Shown here: positions 9,966 through 49,468 of the stretch, piece by piece
Layout: each line of letters starts with the position of its first letter
How positions within the stretch are numbered: the first letter of the stretch is position 1
NCBI GenBank assembly: GCA_018389105.1
Contig: JACATO010000304.1
Location: forward strand, 2,294,001-2,358,000
Source: Nautilus pompilius
Lineage: Eukaryota; Mollusca; Cephalopoda; Nautilida; Nautilidae
Reading direction: 5' to 3'
DNA length: 64,000 nt
The notes under the pieces: model-generated
The model's database searches: none
Told to the model about the DNA's origin: nothing
The model's input: the letters and a program-made list of their open reading frames with translations, nothing else
Program-made: the position numbers and the translations under genes

Positions 9966-10814
9966 ATGGCTCTGGTGTGCGTTTCACGTTGGAACTTCTT
10001 GCAGCCGGATCATTGTCGTCAGCTGTCAGTGGGAGGTTTGTTGAGGGTGCTGAGCCACCCCGCTGAAACTCATGAGCTGGGGTTCCTACGAAAATCGTCA
10101 AGTAGAATCGTTGAATGTTTTCCTGCGAAAAGCGACTCGGACAACGTGGAACCCGGAGGAGTCGGGGATCCCGTCAGGTGCTGCTGGAACCCCGCGGGTC
10201 GCGCCCTGGGGCGGCAGGGGACACGCTTCGTGGTGGCCGGCTTCCCGCCGAGGAGGTTCTGCTCCACTTCGAAGTCGAAGAGCACTGTCAAGAGATCCGC
10301 TACGTATTTCTACGACCTGCTCGGTGTCACCCAGAACGCGACAACGGTGCAGATCAAAGACGCCTTTTACCGGCTGTCGAAGCGATACCATCCCGACATC
10401 AACCACTCGACAGATGCTGCAGAAAAATTCAACGCGATTTCCGAAGCCTACGAAATCCTGGGGAATATCAGGCAACGACGATTATACGACCGCGGGCTCT
10501 CCAGGGATTCCAGATTTAATCCGCCTTCCTACTCATCCGATGGGCCTTTCACGTACACCGAAAAATTTAAGAAGAGGGCGAAAGCATACCCCACAGGTCA
10601 ATCTCGGATATATAACTTTGATGAATTCTACAGGAGGCATTATTCAGATAGTATTAACAAGTCTTCCGAAGTCAAGTTCTCGCAGAAAAAAGACATGGAG
10701 TCGGAAGTTGATATAAAACATCTGAGAAGGATAAATGGAGCTTTTGCTTTGGTTTCTGCAGTAGCATTTATTCTATGGAACTTGAGGTCTTGGAAAAGGA
10801 TGAATAGAAAATAA
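9966..10814 (+). CDS. DNAJC30: DNAJC30-like mitochondrial J-domain protein, intronless
   Basis: A single 282-codon frame. The J domain spans roughly residues 113-177 (YFYDLLGVTQNATTVQIKDA, HPD tripeptide at 142-144, DRGL at its end). It is followed by a linker and a C-terminal membrane segment (about 258-273, GAFALVSAVAFILWNL) with a basic tail. The first about 110 residues are rich in arginine and serine and poor in acids near the start, as expected for a mitochondrial targeting region. This order (presequence, J domain, one C-terminal transmembrane helix) and the lack of introns fit DNAJC30, an inner-membrane J-protein that in mammals associates with ATP synthase and supports complex I upkeep. 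The head-to-head position with BUD23 supports the assignment. The first ATG (aaagATGGCT) gives the best N-terminus. Codons are GC- and CpG-richer than the surroundings. Confidence 0.92.
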   Translation: MALVCVSRWNFLQPDHCRQLSVGGLLRVLSHPAETHELGFLRKSSSRIVECFPAKSDSDNVEPGGVGDPVRCCWNPAGRALGRQGTRFVVAGFPPRRFCSTSKSKSTVKRSATYFYDLLGVTQNATTVQIKDAFYRLSKRYHPDINHSTDAAEKFNAISEAYEILGNIRQRRLYDRGLSRDSRFNPPSYSSDGPFTYTEKFKKRAKAYPTGQSRIYNFDEFYRRHYSDSINKSSEVKFSQKKDMESEVDIKHLRRINGAFALVSAVAFILWNLRSWKRMNRK

Positions 10815-11674: not shown

Positions 11675-13878
11675 CAGGCATGGGCAACCTGCGGCCCACG
11701 GCGTGTTTTTGTGCGGCCCTCTATTCCATCTTAATATTTAAAATTCCTGTGCTTTTTGCTTATTAATATGCTTAATATAAATTTTTTAAATTTGTTTAGA
11801 ACCCAAAATGTCCAAGAAAAGAAAGTTAATTGACGAGTGTCGCGTGTTTCAGGACAAATGGACGGATAATTATTTCTTTGTACTACGAAATGGAAAAGCA
11901 CTTTGTCTCATTTGTTCAGAGACTGTTTCTGTTTTGAAAGAATATAATTTGAAAAGACATTACAGTACCAAACATTCTCAGTATGGCAGTCTTGTTGGTC
12001 GTCCAAGGGAAGAGAAAGTGGAAAAATTGAGAAAAGCTTTGATAGGACAGCAAACATTTTTCACCAAGAAACAGAACCAAAGTGATAATATTGTGCGAGC
12101 TAGTTACATCGTTTCTGAGAAAGTTGCTAAATATTCAAAGAACTACAGTGATGGAGAATTTGTGAAAGAATGTATACAAGCTGTATCTGAAATTATATGT
12201 CCAGATAAAAAAAAGACTTTGAAACTATCAGTTTGTCTCGCAGAACTGTGACAAGACGTATTGAAGAACTGGGAGCTGACATAGAATCAAGTCTAGTGGA
12301 GCGATGCTCAAAATTTGAAACTTTTTCACTGGCCATCGATGAAAGTATGGACGTGACAGATGTGGCTCAACTGGCTGTTTTTGTGCGTGGTGTTGACTCA
12401 GATTTTAATGTTACTGAAGAAGTACTAGGATTGCAAGCAATGAGAGGTACCACAAGAGGCGAGGATATTTTTCTGCAAGTGAAAAAGTTAATGAATGACT
12501 TCAATCTTCAAATAGAAAAGCTTCATAGTTTGGCAACAGATGGCGCTCCTGCCATGGTTGGAAGTAAAGTCGGATTCGTTTCTAAGATGAATAAAGAGCT
12601 TTCAATCTACAATGAAAAGAGAAGCATCATTGCATTTCACTGCATAATCCACCAACAGAATTTATGTGCTAAGTCTATTAAATTTTCACATGTAATGTCT
12701 ATTGTTGTGTCGTGTGTTAACTTTATAAAGTCAAGAGCCCTTAACCATCGTCAGTTCAAAGAATTTTTAGCAGATATTGATGCTGAATATGGCACCCTTG
12801 CTTATTATTGTGAAGTATGTTGGATAAGTAAAGGTAAAATGCTGAAGCAATTCTACGATCTCAGAGAAGAAATTTTTACATTTATGGATATGAAAGGAAG
12901 ATTCGTTTCAGAACTTCAAAATGAGGATTGGATTCGGGATTTGGCTTTCCTTGTGGACCTTACATCTTATTTAAATGAACTAAACGAAGTTGCAGGGTAG
13001 AGTTCAATTTGTTCATGATTTGTATAAGCATGTCAAAGTGTTCCAAAGTAAACTTCAGCTTTGGGAAAGGCAACTAAGAGATGGGAAAACTTCTCACTTT
13101 CCCAATTTGGCACAGCACAAACACTCTGATATTTCTTCGTTTGCATACGAGCTCCATTTACTCAACAAGGAGTTCTCTGAGAGATTTCAGGACTTCATCA
13201 GTCAAGATTTGTATTTCAGAATTGTTTCCTGTCCATTCCAAGTAGATGTTGACTCTGTTTTTGAAATTCTCCAGATGGAATTGCTTGAACTACAAGGAAG
13301 TGACGATCTTAGACAAAGATTCGAAGAAACAACTTTATTGGAGTTCTACAAGTCTCTACCGAAGAAAGATTATCCCGAGATCTTGAAACTAGCAAGAAGT
13401 TTCATCTCTATTTTTGCGAGCACTTATGTATGTGAACAATTATTTTCTAGAATGAAACATATTAAATCTAGAAATAAGTCGAAACTTACTGATGAACATT
13501 TGTTATGTAACCTGAGAGTAGCAACATCTCAAATCTCTCCTAATATTGATAAATTGTTAAAGAATATGATTGTACAAAAGTCTCATTGATGCATGTGTTG
13601 TCAAAAAAATAAAATGTCAGTGAATTTTTGTTTTCTTAACCATACAACATTACATACAATATACATCTGTACTAATAATTATCATTATGAAATAATGAGA
13701 TAGGAATAAAAATTTTCATCATAAGAATAATAAAAATTTTAATAATTATTTGACACGTTAATATAGCACACAGTATATATTTGTATATATATATATATAT
13801 AGAGAGCTTGTATACATATACCATCACTTGGAAATTATATAATGTGGCCCCCAGTTCACAAAAGGTTGCCCATGCCTG
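11675..13878 (+). mobile_element. Complete 2.2-kb hAT element with 8-bp target-site duplication
   Basis: The ends are inverted repeats starting CAGGCATGGGCAACCT; the right end is the reverse complement AGGTTGCCCATGCCTG. Identical 8-bp copies of agataagt lie immediately outside (11667-11674 and 13879-13886), the hallmark of hAT insertion. Their central TA fits the nnnTAnnn preference described for Buster-group hATs. One plus-strand transposase fills the interior. The insertion is intergenic, between DNAJC30 and CYB5D2, and leaves both genes intact. Perfect duplications and long intact reading frames point to a comparatively young insertion. Confidence 0.95.
11808..13589 (+). pseudogene. hAT transposase of the GTF2IRD2/CHARLIE8 type, two frameshifts
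   Basis: Three frames cover the whole protein: 11808-12251, 12233-13000 and 12990-13589. The start is MSKKRKLIDECRVF. A BED-type zinc finger follows at about residues 30-55 (CLIC, later H and H in KRHYSTKH). The RNase H-like core keeps LAIDESMD, ATDGAPAMVG and HCIIHQQNLC. The C-terminal dimerisation region keeps STYVCEQLFSRMKHIKSRNK. The first shift lies at an eight-A run (12207-12214), a typical slippage site; the second is consistent with one extra base near 12983. Apart from these the protein looks full length. In mammals a relative of this transposase was fused to form GTF2IRD2. No sign of host exonisation is visible here. Confidence 0.93.
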
Positions 13879-19887: not shown

Positions 19888-20897
19888 TTGGCCATTTTAA
19901 GTGTTTGATCCTTCAGTCCTTTGCCAACCTATGGCTTGAGTCATGTGACAATTCTTTTACTTAAACTGCTGCATTTGGCTCTTTGTTTCTGGGTGGGATA
20001 CCTGAAAACCTCATGCCACTGTTACACAACTCTCATTTACATAACAGTGGTCAAATTGAGTATAAAACCTGCAAATGTCCATATAATGAAGTTAACTAAC
20101 CAAATAGTGAGAGTTTGGTGCTTTGATGATAGCTTATTGATGAGCTAGCTATAACTCAGCTACAGACCAGAAGTAAACAGACATTTGTAGTGCCGAACTT
20201 GATATAACAATATTATCAACTGACTTTGGCAGATAGATAATGACTAGTTCAGATTGCTAGGACTTATTTTCATTGGACTTTGATGGATTGGAACCAAGTT
20301 CTCTTCTCTTTGGTGAGAGCTTTCACCTTGTTGATGATTGTTTACATTTGGTGGAAACCAAACTAATGTAGCGATAACTAATGTGTTAGTGATAGAGGCT
20401 GTTTTGGCAGTGGCATTGTTTTAGCCTGACTTGATGTATCTTATAACCATAAAAGTGAACCAATTCTCAATGATGCTGCCTAGATGAGATTATTAGATTT
20501 GTTGATTTACATTTGTACAAAGTCATGGCAGTCAATTCACAGTCATGGACAATAATGCAAGAGCCCATCATGCAAGAATAGTCATGAATTGTCTTCATGA
20601 GAAAAATACCCATCTTCCATGGCCTGCTTGTTTTCCCATTCTAAACCCCAACCATAGAACATGTCTGGGATAAGCTCACCAGGAACATTGGACGGTAATC
20701 ATGAGCTCCTGGCACCAGTTTTGAACTGCATCATACATCTGGTAAATAGTATGAGATTCAGGTGGAATGCTGTAGTGCAAGCTATACAAGGTACTAAAGG
20801 TCATGTGACTTTAGGTTGTTGGTAGTAACTATTTATTGTCATGATGATACTAAATGCATTGAATAAGTGAACTCTGCTTGTCAAACTTTATGGCCAA
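19888..20897 (+). mobile_element. Decayed Tc1/mariner-type element
   Basis: Weak inverted ends: TTGGCCAT at 19888 and its reverse complement ending near 20897. A transposase ruin lies near the right side. At 20545 the frame reads NARAHHARIVMNCLHEK, matching the Tc1 'DNARPH-A' block around the second catalytic aspartate. Just after comes WPACFPILNP, a corruption of the WPARSPDLNPIEH block, then frame-shifted sequence equivalent to 'WDKLTRNIG'. Many stops and shifts show great age. The exact ends are approximate. Confidence 0.6.
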
Positions 20898-25870: not shown

Positions 25871-27441
25871 TACAAGTGCATATAAAAAAAATTAGAATAA
25901 TGTGGAAGACTTCATTTTTTTCCGTAATTTAATTAAAACTGAAACTTTCATATATTCTAGATTCATTACACATAAAGTGAAATATTTCAAGCCTTTTTTG
26001 TTTTAATTTTGATGATTACAGCTTACAGCTCATGAAAATCAAAAATCCACTATCTCAAAATATTAGAATATTTCATAAGATCAATAATAAAAAAAGGATT
26101 TATAATATAGAAATGTCGAACTTCTGAAAAGTATGTTCATTTATGCACTCAATACTTGGTCTGGGCTCCTTTGGCACGAATCACTGCATCAATGGGGCGT
26201 GGCATGGAGGCGATCAGCCTGTGGCACTGCTGAGTGTTATGGAAGCCCAGGTTGCCTTGATAGCGGTCTTCAGTTCGTCTGTATTGTTGGGTCTGGTGTC
26301 TCTCATCTCCCTCTTGACAATACCCCATAGATTCTCTATGGGGTTCAGGTCAGGCGAGTTGGCTGGCCAATCAAGCACAGTAATACCATGGTCAGAAAAC
26401 CAGTTACTAGTAGTTTTGGCACTGTGGGAAGGTGCCAAGTCCTGCTGGAAAAGGAAATCAGCATCTCCATAAAGCTTGTCAGCAGACGGAACATGAAGTG
26501 TTCTAAAATCTCTTGGTAGACGGCTGCGTTGACTTTGGACTTGATAAAACACAGTGGACCAACACCAGCAGATGACATGGTACCCCAAATCATCACTGAC
26601 TGTGGAAACTTCACAATGGACTTCAAGCAACTTGGATTCTGTGCCTCTCCACTCTTCCTCCGGACTGTGGGACCTTGATTTCCAAATGAAATGCAAAATT
26701 TACTTTCATCTGAAAAGAGGACTTTGGACCACTGAGCAACGGTCCAGTTATTTTTCTCCTTAGCCCAGGTAAGACTCTTCTGACGTTGTCTCTGGTTCAG
26801 GAGTGGCTTGACACTAGGAATGCGACACTTGTAGCCCATTTCCTGGACACGTCTGTTTGTGGTGGCTCTTGATGCACTGACTCCAGCCTCAGTCCACTCC
26901 TTGTGAAGCTCTCCAAGTTCTTGAATCGGCTTTGCTTGACAATCCTCTCAAGGTTGCGGTCATCCCTCTTGCTTGTGCACCTTTTTCCTACCACACTTTT
27001 CCCTTCCAGTCAACTTTCCATGAATATGCTTTGATACAACACTCTGCGAACAGCCAGCCTTTTCAGCAATGACCTTCTGTGGCTTACCCACCTTGTCGAG
27101 GGTGTCAATGAGTGTCTTCTGGACAACTGTCAAGTCAGCAGTCTTCCCCATGATTGTGGTTGTGTGTACTGAACCAGACTCAGAGATTCATGGTATTTAT
27201 ATTGCATAAACAGTGATTTACTCAAACTCGAAATGGAATATTCTAATATTTTGAGATACGTTTTTTTTCTATTTTTTTATCTGTAGGCCGTAATTATCAA
27301 AATTAAAATTTAAATATGTTCGAAACATTTTAGTTTACATGTAATGAGTGTAGAATATATGCAATTTTCACTTTCTGAAATAACTGACAAAAAATATTGA
27401 ACTCTTCCACGATATTCTAATTTTTTTTAGATGCACCTGTA
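25871..27441 (-). mobile_element. Fish-type Tc1 element with long inverted repeats
   Basis: The element is about 1.57 kb. Its ends are related inverted repeats (tacaagtgcatataaaaaaa on the left; the reverse of the right end starts tacaggtgcatctaaaaaaa), with TA at both borders. Inverted matches continue inward for about 200 bp: ATCTCAAAATATTAGAATAT at about 26053 and its complement at about 27238. This is the arrangement of Tc1 elements with IR/DR-type ends. One minus-strand transposase fills the middle. The terminal and internal sequences strongly resemble Tc1 elements that are abundant in teleosts. Confidence 0.88.
26130..27151 (-). pseudogene. Tc1 transposase, frameshifted but with all catalytic blocks
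   Basis: Reading from 27151 leftwards, successive frames (26960-27151, 26797-26994, 26345-26839, 26214-26696) give a full Tc1 transposase. The N-terminal paired-like DNA-binding domain starts MGKTADLTVVQKTLIDTL and has EKAGCSQSVVSKHIHGK. The catalytic domain has VLFSDESKFCISFG (first D), FQQDLAPSHSAK (second D) and SPDLNPIENLWGIVKREM (third acidic residue, E). The sense order is complete; a few small indels break the frame. All three catalytic acids are visible. It is not expected to be active as it stands. Confidence 0.92.
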
Positions 27442-41609: not shown

Positions 41610-42205
41610 CTTTAGATCAGTGGTTCTCAACGTGGGCAATTCGATTTTCAAGGGGGGCAATTGAGTACGAATGAAGAGGTCTGGGTCCAAATTTTCGATT
41701 TTTATTTTTTGGATTTTCCATCACGTAAAGTTTATGTTTCAGATGCTATTTTAGGTAAATATTTTTTTTTAGTGAAAAAGGTCTTTATTGTATAGTTATT
41801 ACATAATCACTCTGCCATCGCTCTTCATGCACGTCACACAAAGTGCACGAGGTCATGGAAGAACCTTATTTATTGAATTTGATTTAGAAATGCGATTCAA
41901 AGGGCTTTTGCTAAGTTACCATTATAATAACTGTTTCCTCCGTTTTCTCTCAAAGGAGAGCATTTCCATTTTCTGAAAATTCAGAGCTCGTAAACAAAGA
42001 AGTTATTTTGGTGTTTTCACGCAAGGTAATTGATACATATTTCTTTGGTTGCTCGTGAATATATTTGATTGTTTAGTATTATGATGATACGAGAAGATAC
42101 CTAAAGTGTCAGAGATGAAAACTTAATACTCCAAATGCTAATATAATGCAACAGTCTTGCCAAATTCATTGTGTATGTGTTGTGCATATTTTTGTCAGAC
42201 GATTA

Positions 42206-44589
42206 CACTGGTCAACAAAATTAAATGTATTATACTCATTATGAATGCAAACCAACTTTTTCAGACTAATTTTTCATGCTGATTTCAAAATTTCACTCCA
42301 TTTGTATGCAACACGTATCAGTTTTTCAGTAGATACATGCAAATATTTACATATTTGTATATATGAAATCATTAACGTAATAAATAAGGACATATTATTT
42401 TTAGAAAGTAAATGAGTTTATTGAGTTAAAAATCATCACTATCATTCTACAAAGAGTGAATACACAAAAAATGGGTCAGACAAAACAGACAAAGTTAGAA
42501 CAACAGAGTTAGAAACATTGTGATTTGGATTTCCTGCGGTGTTCCTGATCTGGTTGATCACGGTAAAGTGTCCAGCAGTAGTCAGCCAGCATACTGTCAT
42601 TCCAGAAGCCTTGGTACTGTTTCTCCATAGCACTAATGTCCTGGTGAAATCTTTCACCATGTTCATCAGACACTGCTCCAAGGTTATATGCGAAGAAATC
42701 CAGATGGGAGTCCAAGAAGTGAACTTTCAGTGACATGCGACAACCCATTGCTGAGTAACATTTCAGAAGATTCTTGATGCCATCCTTGTAATCCATTGCC
42801 TTCTTGTTGCCCAAGAAATTCTCACAGATCCAATTGAAAGCATTCCAGGCAGGCAGTTCCAGTTCATCCAGTGTTGTCTTGAAGTTGACATCTTTGAGTA
42901 CTTCTCTAATTTGGGGTCCGACAAAGATACTCTCTTTCAACTTCGCCTGTGTGATTTTGAGAAACTTTTCTACAATATACTCAAACCCTCTGGCATTTCT
43001 CTTCCCTAGTGTCTTTACAAACTATTTCATCAGTCCAAGCTTTATGTGGAAAGGAGGCAATAGGACATTACATGGATCTACAAGAGATGTATTCTTGACG
43101 CTAGACAGTCCTGGCTGGTATGATGTTCTTGTCTGCCAGTTTGATTCCGAATAATGTCTGTCAGTTCCCCGACTATCCCATAGACACAAGAAACAACAGT
43201 ATTTTGTGAAACCTGACTGCATTCCCATTAACATTCCAATGACTTTTAAATCTCCACATATTTTCCATGAGTATCTTTCATAGGCAATGGCATGAAGTAA
43301 AAGTTCCATATTCTCATATGATTCATGAAGATGAACGGAGTGTGCAATATGAATGGAGGGCTTCAAATTACCATTATGGAGAAGTACAGCTTTAAAACTT
43401 CGTTTTGAAGAGTCAATAAACAAACGCCACTCTGCAGGATCATGATTTTGTGATAAACATTCGAAAAGTCCATCGATGTTACTGCAAAAGCAAAGCGGGC
43501 CTTCAACAGAAAAACACGTTTGTAGAACCACATTTCTCTGCCGAAAATAAGTTATACGAACACCGTGCTCTAGCAGATACTTCTCCTTCAGTCTTGATGC
43601 CAACAGTTCTGCTTTATCTTTTGAGAGGGATAGGTCTCTGACAAGGTCATTCAGTTCAGCTTGGGAAAATTTCTGAGGTTCAAAGCTATCATCATCAGCC
43701 ACGTAATCTTCCTCAGCAGCACTATCGTGACAGTCAGCATCATGATCTGATGTTTCAATACCATCATCTGGTGGAACTGGAATTGGCAGACTTCCATTGT
43801 GAGGCACAGGTCTCATTGCAGAATCCAAATTGGGATACACAATTTTGTGTTTATCCTTCATAGAAAATCCTGTGACATTTACTTTGCAAAAATAACAGTC
43901 ATTAAAATGGTCTTTCGGCTCCCTCCATATCATTGGAATGGCAAAAGGCATGGACTTCTTCCTCTTATTGAACCAGTCACGTAAGCCATTTGAGCAAGCT
44001 GAGCAGATAAAATGTGGTGCCCATAACTTGTCCTGATCTCCAAGAGGACAGTCAAAGTATAGCTTATAAATCATCTTGATCTCTGGTGTTATTGTACGTT
44101 TTTGAGCTTTCACAATAAATTGTCCACAGACACAACAAAACGCATCAGGAGGATTTCTACACTGTCTTGACATTGCTAACACTGTAAAACAAGTAAGGAA
44201 ATAGATACAAACGGTTATACTTATATTGAATTTGAGATGATGAAATATTTCATCAGACCAATTATGACTGGACAATTTGCGATGTTGAAATACCTATTTC
44301 ATCAGACAAAACTTGATTGGTTAATTTAAGATGATGAAATATTGCATCTGAACTATGCAGCAATGAATAATGTAGTTTAAAGGTATGTTTCCATGATGTA
44401 AATGAAATACATGCATACACGTCATTAATTGGAATTTCTATATAATGCATGAGCTAAAACCAAAAAACTTTCTCATCTTGAAAACTGTACGTGATGTCAA
44501 AAAACTCATTGTATATTTGAAATCAGCACTAAAAACTACACCAAGTACACCTTGACATATGCTTGATGAAAAATACTTGTTGATCAGTG
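42206..44589 (-). mobile_element. CMC-like (Chapaev3-type?) DNA transposon nested in the hAT
   Basis: The ends are inverted repeats: CACTGGTCAACAA at 42206 and, inward from 44589, CACTGATCAACAA (12 of 13). A second inverted pair, TGCTGATTTCAAA, lies at 42277-42289 and 44516-44528. TTA flanks both sides (42203-42205 and 44590-44592), a 3-bp duplication. Termini starting CACTG, a 3-bp duplication and a cysteine-rich transposase together suggest the CMC (CACTA/Mirage/Chapaev) superfamily, perhaps Chapaev3; that placement is inferred. The 2384-bp unit carries one gene on the minus strand. Because it interrupts the hAT, it arrived later. Confidence 0.85.
42509..44173 (-). pseudogene. Transposase-like protein of the nested element: 554 codons with one in-frame stop
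   Basis: From MSRQCRNPPDAFCCVCGQF (ATG at 44173) one frame runs to TAA at 42509, broken only by a TAG at 43022-43024 (after KLGLMK), followed in frame by FVKTLGKRNARG. The N-terminal about 120 residues are cysteine-rich (CCVCG, FICSAC, DCYFCKV), likely zinc-binding. An acidic linker follows. The core has RLFIDSSKRSFKAVLLHNG, ICGDLKVIGMLMG, then GFTKYCCFLCLWDSRG, and later KVHFLDSHLDFFAYNLG and DEHGERFHQDI. Read as an RNase H-like nuclease, the acidic residues in FIDSS, GDLK and GERFH are the candidate triad, with the CxxC pair between the second and third as in CMC transposases. Proteins of this kind are common in invertebrate genomes and usually annotated as uncharacterised. The catalytic assignment is my inference. 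Confidence 0.8.
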
Positions 44590-44808
44590 TTATCGTCAAT
44601 ACATTCGTGTGTGATACAAATTTCTCACACATTCGTAAAAATCTGGTATACCGCACTGTCTGTCCTTATATGCTGTATAAAACGAATCGACATTGTTTTA
44701 TTAATTATGTGTTAACTTCATTTCATTTATGTGTTTACTTGAACGTCTTAAATTCTGAAAGTGCATTTCACTTCTTAAGATTACTCATTTATCTCAGTCA
44801 CAGCCCCT

Positions 44809-46575
44809 ATGCATAAAATGAGTAGTGCAAGCAAAAAGAAAGTTAGTCAGTATTCAGAGGAATGTTTGAAATTTGGTTTCATACCCGCTCCTCATGATGA
44901 AAGGTCACCTTTCTGTCTCTTATGCCAACAATGCTTGACCAACGAATCAATGAAACGAGGTCGTCTTGAGGCACATTTGAAGGCGAAACATAGTGCGTAT
45001 GTAAATTCAGATTTGAATTACTTCAAATCTTTAAAGAATAAGTTTGAAAAAAGATCAACAATAAAGTCTCTGTTCACTGCACAAACTGTTACTATCAGTC
45101 GTACTCTTGAGGCAAGTTATGAAATTTCTTTACTCATTGCTAAATCTGGAAAAAATCATACTATAGGGGAGGATTTAATTAAACCATCAATATCTGCATT
45201 TCTTAAAACAGTTCTGGAAAAAGATGACAAAGATGTTAAAGCCATGCCACTCAGTAACGACACTGTTAGGAGAAGAATAGATGAAATGAGTGAAGATATT
45301 GAAACACAACTTGTTGAAAAGCTGAAATCAAGAAAATTCTCAGTACAAATGGATGAATCAACTGTGAGAGGCAGAGGCCTTATTGCTAACTTATGTAAGA
45401 TATATTGATGAAGGTGAATTTGTTGAAGAAATGTTATTCTGCAAATCTTTAGATACCACCACTACCACCGCTGATATATATATATAATAAACTAAAATAC
45501 TACTTAGATATAAATAATATACCAATGGAAAACATAACATCTTGTGCAGCTGATGGTGTTCCTGTTATGATGGGCAAGAAAAATGGCTGCTTAAAATTGA
45601 TGAAAGATGAGAATCCGGAGATGCTTCTTGTGCACTGTGTTATTCATAGAGAGAACTTAGTGTCGAAAAATATTTCTCTTGTACTTAATGAGGTACTGAA
45701 ATCAGTTATAAAATTTATCAATGCTATCAAAACTAATGACAAATGTGAGCGTCTTTTCGAGAAATTTTGTGAAGATAACAATTCAGACTATGTGAAACTT
45801 TTACTTCACATTGAGGTACGGTGGCTTTCAAAAGGGAATTGTTTGAAAAGATTCATGGAACTGTTTGATGAACTTAGTGGGGCTTTCTAAGTGACAAGCC
45901 TGAAATGAAGCACCTGCTAACTGTTGCTGGAAAAGCGTTTTTGAGTTATTTAGCAGATATTTTCGAAAAACTGAATGTGTTGAATAAACAACTTCAAGGA
46001 ACAAATAAAACACTTGTTGATGCAAAGGCAAAGATATTTGGCTTTATTTCATTTATCAAGTTATGCCAAAAAATATTTCTGACAAAAATTTTGACCAATT
46101 TCATTGGCTAAAAAAATGTGAGCTGACTGAGGCTGCTGTGCTTGTCATTGTGGATCATCTGAAAATATTGGCCTCTGATTTTAAAGAAAAATTTTCTGAT
46201 TTAAAACAGATTAATTTTCCATCGTGGGTGATGCAGCCAGTGCTTGTGGATTTATCTGATGTTTCAGTGCAGTACCAAGAAGAACTCTCGGAAATAAAAA
46301 ATGATGAGTCAGTTAAAACTTTATTCAACATAAAAGGAGCAATGGCATGGCTTTGTGATGAGACAGAAACTAAATACCCAAATTCAACTAGCTTTGCAAG
46401 GAAACTGTTGTTACCATTTCCATCTTCATATTTAGTGTTGTAAATGATTTGCTACTGAAGAAAAGAAATTCACTGGATATCAGTAAACGAGGAGATTTGA
46501 GACTAAAGCTGACTAAATTAGTGCCTAATATAAAATCTCTTTGCAGCAGGCATGAAGCACAAGGGTCTCACTAAC
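44809..46575 (+). pseudogene. Buster/ZBED5-type hAT transposase, several frameshifts
   Basis: Frames 44809-45408, 45525-45890, 45905-46111, 46063-46443 and a tail to about 46575 give a nearly complete protein. The N-terminus has a BED-type finger (FCLLCQQC, then EAHLKAKHSAY). The core has FSVQMDEST (first D), SCAADGVPVMMGKKNG (second D region), VHCVIHRENL and EVRWLSKGNCLKRF. The C-terminus has SSYLV, then VVNDLLLKKRNSLDISKRGD in another frame, matching the dimerisation region. Decay is concentrated near 45409-45520 (with a short TA repeat) and 45890-46110. This family gave rise to ZBED5-like host genes in vertebrates. It is the cognate transposase of the CAGTGGTTCTCAAC ends. Confidence 0.9.
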
Positions 46576-47092: not shown

Positions 47093-48903
<1,811 letters not shown>

Positions 48904-49468
48904 GTTATTGTTAATAGAAACCAAACTAAAATACAAAATTATACATTTTTATATTTATTTGTGGAAAATTACACTCATTACAAAACTATACATAAAACTA
49001 TTTGAAATATGTAAATGTGCATATTCTGAATTATTTGCTTATAGTTTCCACATTTAAAAATAAATAAGTGGTATTACTCAAATCTTTCTGACTACTATGA
49101 TAATGGAATTCTACAATTTTTAAAAACAAACTTCCTATTCCTACCCAGCTCATTACTTGAACCTATATATAATTTTAACCTAAAATATTCTTTCCATATA
49201 TTTTTGATCATGGTGAGGGACACTGTGGGATAAATGCTAACGAAAACTTTATATTGCTTGCACTGTTGTTTGAAATGTCTAAAAAAATGGCATTTCATGT
49301 TCTGCTGAACAAGAAGCATTTGTCTTTTATGCAGGCTAGTAAGTTGTGCCATTCATAGCAAAAATCTTTCACATTTTAGAAAAAAATAGTGTGCAAGCTA
49401 AAGTTAGAACATTCAGTTTTCATAATTAAGTTTTATTGTTTTGATACCAGTTTTGCTTTTCTTTCAAG
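48904..49468. other. AT-rich sequence before candidate exon
   Basis: No gene or element recognised; CpG-poor, compatible with intron. Confidence 0.4.

Follow-up and report, generated by a model that had tools for sequence, protein, structure and literature searches.

A young, high-copy DNA transposon, very probably of the Chapaev3 type, and its decayed copy in a stretch of the Nautilus pompilius genome

The window, a 64,000-nt stretch of Nautilus pompilius DNA, contains a 2384-bp transposable element at 42206–44589 on the minus strand; no second copy was found in the rest of the window. The termini of the element read CACTGGTCAACAA from 42206 and, inverted, CACTGATCAACAA from 44589. These 13-bp terminal inverted repeats, which lie at 42206–42218 on the gene 3´ side and at 44577–44589 on the gene 5´ side and differ by one mismatch, have the form CACTGRTCAACAA, that is CACTG...CAGTG, and are flanked by a target site duplication of TTA (42203–42205 and 44590–44592). 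The two arms of a subterminal 51-bp imperfect inverted repeat (42267–42317 and 44488–44538, 71% complementary) are located 61 and 51 bp inward of the two ends. A tandem array of ~49-bp units is situated between the 5´ end and the gene (44229–44348); among the 39 aligned copies described below, about two units are left in L012, L028 and L030, and one in L009, L017 and L040.

The transposase gene occupies 42509–44173 on the minus strand and comprises 554 codons and a terminal stop, interrupted by one internal TAG at codon 384 (43022–43024). The first-pass annotation had correctly placed this frame in a 2.38-kb element, and the motifs that it quoted (N-terminal cysteine pairs, an acidic linker, FIDSS, GDLK, CCFLC, paired histidines and GERFH) are all present. 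The plus strand across the gene is stop-rich, and the remaining five frames of the region contain 24 to 49 stops. In 2000 first-order Markov randomisations of these 1665 bases, the stops numbered 33.8 on average and at least 16, and an open frame by chance is excluded.

The N-terminal region (residues 13–96; 43886–44137) is rich in Cys and His, with CxxC pairs at residues 13–16, 57–60 and 93–96, and is followed by an acidic linker at about residues 135–165 (43679–43771). Three acids are proposed as catalytic: D254 in FIDSS (43412–43414), D308 in GDLK (43250–43252) and E507 in GERFH (42653–42655). Between the second and the third lie the C(2)C motif (C327-C330 in CCFLC; 43184–43195), the position of the LH motif (residues 375–376; 43046–43051) and the H(4)H motif (H485-H490 in HFLDSH; 42704–42721). 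Judged from these motifs and from the family, the protein would fold around an RNase H core whose catalytic residues are D254, D308 and E507, and would have sites for zinc. Single-sequence structure predictions of the whole window protein and of residues 170–554 gave pLDDT values of 35.0 and 34.9.

An alignment for coding state was made from 39 copies of the gene, the window copy and 38 others. C327, C330 and H490 are kept in 39 of 39 copies and H485 in 38 of 39, a sameness that mostly mirrors the youth of the copies and gives no evidence of selection. L375 is present in all 38 other copies and H376 in 37 of the 39 rows, while the window copy carries F375; the LH motif characteristic of Chapaev3 is thus present in the family and lost in the window copy. 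The internal TAG is likewise private to the window copy, being absent from 38 of 38 others. Since it carries both this TAG and the loss of the LH leucine, the window copy is damaged at two points at least.

The sole Pfam score of the protein is a weak one to zf-AD (E 0.7) in the N-terminal Cys/His region, and the Pfam DDE and transposase families gave no match. No relatives were found in scans of viral_contigs and genome_contigs or in phages (tblastn, up to E 10), and PHROGs gave E 1.3 only. In the PDB the window protein has no match, and an intact copy matched only FtsA (E 1.7–1.8). A literature search with the terminal sequence as text gave 288 matches, and the 10 of these that were listed concern, by title, other subjects.

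The ends of the element were established from empty target sites. Both flanks were joined at one TTA to give a 300-base query, of which the best 40 scored of 229 genomic candidates are 96–98% identical. At 10 of 10 loci whose junctions were examined, the sequence is uninterrupted and contains a single TTA, which proves the ends and the 3-bp duplication and bears out the exact boundaries that had been read from the window alone. The target repeat begins with CAGTGGTTCTCAA at 41618, extends rightward beyond 46204 and is split by 42206–44589. It is taken to be a high-copy hAT-like repeat, by eye, from the end CAGTGGTTCTCAA and from the zinc-finger-like start of a 199-aa frame (44809–45408); this hAT identity is our assumption, and the frame has no Pfam match. 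A possible 8-bp target of this repeat, CTTTAGAT, is located at 41610–41617. Because copies of the repeat are uninterrupted elsewhere, the element was nested in a hAT-like repeat that was already present.

Other frames and repeats occur in the window. Two frames at 12233–13589 on the plus strand, with a DUF4371 match below the cut-off and a hAT dimerisation domain, are the remains of another hAT transposase. A 160-aa frame at 26214–26696 on the minus strand matches DDE_3 and is, we presume, a remnant of a mariner/Tc1-like transposase. A 282-aa frame with a DnaJ domain lies at 9966–10814 on the plus strand, and an ATT microsatellite of ~71 units at 48703–48913.

To describe the family, the gene DNA was searched against the assembly from which the window comes (727.6 Mb in 2558 contigs). 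The best 40 scored of 1330 candidates, the window copy included, are 96–100% identical; as the best-scoring ones, they are biased to complete copies. A search for gene copies lacking the terminal repeats found both ends in 39 of these 40 (the window copy and 39 fetched with flanks). In the exception, L019, which was left out of the coding-state alignment, the match ends at element position 2367, 17 bp before the end downstream of the gene. The flanking 3-mers are identical in 28 of the 39 two-ended copies (16 TAA, 11 TTA and 1 TCA), and 27 of the 28 conform to TWA. Shuffled pairings (10,000) gave a mean of 14.4 identical 3-mers and a maximum of 24, compared with the 28 observed. Among the copies with identical 3-mers, the duplication is preceded by A and followed by T in 26 of 28. 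The unlike 3-mers of the other 11 copies may reflect decay after insertion, exchange between copies or assembly faults. When the joined flanks of the 39 copies were compared with the fetched loci and the window, 35 matches and one across the junction were obtained; the latter (L039 against window 20543–20677, 69%) was rejected as too weak.

The aligned copies diverge little, with a median K2P distance of 1.5% to the majority and 3.0% pairwise. The earlier suggestion to look for intact frames with the same ends was fruitful, in that 6 of the 38 other aligned copies retain an intact frame of 553–554 aa. Differences from the majority are spread evenly over codon positions 1, 2 and 3 (352/344/325), as expected for selection-free decay after a burst. 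A separate subfamily, represented by eight copies with 76–85% protein identity, was considered and rejected: their DNA is 96.4–97.8% identical to the window gene, and at this identity the apparent outliers, which carry stops and frame breaks, form no subfamily apart.

The copy number was estimated from short patterns. Allowing up to 2 mismatches, there are 953 sites genome-wide for the left end, on the gene 5´ side (474 + 479), and 984 for the GERFH region (492 + 492), while the reversed end and GERFH patterns used as controls gave 0 sites each. These counts bear on the notion that a host (domesticated) gene sits by chance between repeats, a notion to which the long frame, the zinc-like motifs and the lack of a transposase model match would lend some colour. 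A host gene is at odds with 953 ends and 984 GERFH sites and with the neutral decay over codon positions, and for the window copy it is refuted by the empty target sites; we give it practically no credence. The ends, the duplication and the empty sites, together with the published diagnostic features discussed below, uphold the mobile-element identity first proposed for this protein. It should be annotated as a transposase that Pfam leaves unlabelled, and be excluded from host gene counts.

Internally deleted derivatives recur in the family. When 70 exact left ends were paired with 98 exact GERFH sites, 56 were paired: 14 at near-full distances (1834–1931; 1922 in the window copy), 18 at 1200–1300, 16 at 880–920 and 8 at others. 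The 14 unpaired left ends are no evidence of anything further, because only exact matches were entered. Fifteen left ends were fetched with ~620 bases of interior each. Four are joined at one deletion junction, from element positions ~339 to 1356, and four at a second, from 532 to 1197, where extra bases are present. A ninth has a junction of its own (463 to 1286), and the remaining six are free of any junction within the ~620 bases. The nine deleted derivatives finish in the same termini at their other end, two of them with one mismatch, and the flanking 3-mers are identical in six and unlike in three. Since one deletion junction is common to copies at different places, the deleted forms have multiplied, presumably by means of transposase from intact copies. 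Of four short (~1.35-kb) derivatives (L064/L079 and L073/L081), two lack a matching duplication and are flanked by TTA at the left and GTA at the right, which may be chance or a trait of that class.

Harbinger elements also prefer TWA targets, and the Pfam model for the PIF/Harbinger transposase is DDE_Tnp_4. No DDE family appears among the Pfam matches, DDE_Tnp_4-like ones included, and the ends of the element are CACTG...CAGTG. Canonical Harbinger elements make 3-bp duplications as well (PMC12730594), but C(2)C together with H(3-4)H in the interval from the second acid to the glutamate, the arrangement found here with H(4)H, is described as a mark of the CMC group (PMC12730594; PMC4079192), from motifs of Yuan and Wessler (2011) as cited in both sources. 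Membership of PIF/Harbinger, or of any other DDE superfamily that duplicates 3 bp of target, is therefore very improbable.

Within the CMC group, Chapaev elements are recognised by the motifs C(2)C, LH and H(4)H, by CAC...GTG termini and by a duplication of 3 to 4 bp, which in Chapaev3 is TWA and lies between A and T (PMC4079192). The element has inverted repeats with CAC...GTG termini at both ends, a TWA duplication in the A/T context, C(2)C and H(4)H. A zinc-binding Chapa domain is reported in Chapaev3 (PMC4411706), and the Cys/His-rich N terminus fits the position of that domain, of which it is a candidate. DUF1280 (PF06918) has been tied to Chapaev transposases (PMC3985635); no match to it was listed as far as E 10 in a Pfam search whose filters discard most matches above ~0.1, and this model is not among the published Chapaev3 marks. 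A different CMC/CMCT branch (EnSpm/CACTA, Mirage, other Chapaev, Transib or Plavaka) would share C(2)C, H(3-4)H, mostly CA...TG ends and duplications of 2 to 5 bp (PMC12730594), and the missing match to a Pfam transposase model favours no branch either. Against it, published Chapaev3 elements agree with this one in the 3-bp TWA duplication flanked by A and T, in protein size and in H(4)H, so such a branch is very improbable. We conclude, with a probability of about 0.94, that the window element is a decayed member of a young Chapaev3 family (CMC group) of cut-and-paste DNA transposons present in high copy number, an assignment made by published features and not by a homology score. The first-pass annotation had placed the protein with CMC (Chapaev-3), which this agreement supports; its description of an under-described type was overstated, as Chapaev3 has been covered by PMC4079192 and by a Repbase report of 2008 referenced in PMC4411706.

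A mechanism can be proposed from these features. Intact copies would encode a single-exon transposase of ~554 aa, whose N-terminal zinc region may bind the CACTG inverted ends and the subterminal repeats. An RNase H-like core formed by D254, D308 and E507, in which the C(2)C/H(4)H zinc insertion separates the second acid from the glutamate, would excise the element, which would then be joined to target DNA cut with a 3-bp stagger at A|TWA|T. The deleted derivatives would be mobilised in trans.

The element belongs to an already-known Chapaev3 type and as such is not surprising; its value lies in annotation and possibly in biochemistry. As of 2014, Chapaev transposons were described as largely uncharacterised in their biology (PMC4079192), and a young family whose copies are nearly identical, with intact frames and precise empty sites in a single genome, is good test material for DNA cutting and targeting. 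Given intact copies with ends and recurrent deletion derivatives presumably driven in trans, it is conceivable, with the odds somewhat against it, that this is an unnamed single-exon Chapaev3 family that is perhaps still mobile. If so, the family would be a practical source for the biochemistry of the Chapaev3 transposase.

Target duplications are 4 bp in other Chapaevs and 5 bp in Transib, and it is in the length of the duplication that the window element departs from these relatives. The Chapaev3 branch is regarded as a distant relative of Transib and RAG1 (PMC4411706), and other Chapaev and Transib/RAG1 proteins likewise carry C(2)C and H(3-4)H after the second acid and before the glutamate (PMC12730594); for Chapaev in general, 3–4 bp is the duplication length given (PMC4079192). 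Conan, a Chapaev3 element, agrees in group and in target rule. In contrast, its consensus is 1865 bp with a 461-aa exon in tenrec, and the window element is longer (PMC4079192). The closest likeness, compared by description, is to Merrow and Garfield, which share with it the CAC...GTG ends, the TWA duplication with its A and T neighbours, both C(2)C and H(4)H and, at the family level, LH. Where both of their exons are complete, these elements measure 2092–2455 bp and encode transposases of 554–562 aa (556 aa in Garfield), a range that includes the values found here, and Garfield also has internally deleted non-autonomous relatives (PMC4079192). Unlike the two-exon genes of Merrow and Garfield, the window frame consists of one exon, as do most other Chapaev3 genes in the same account (PMC4079192).
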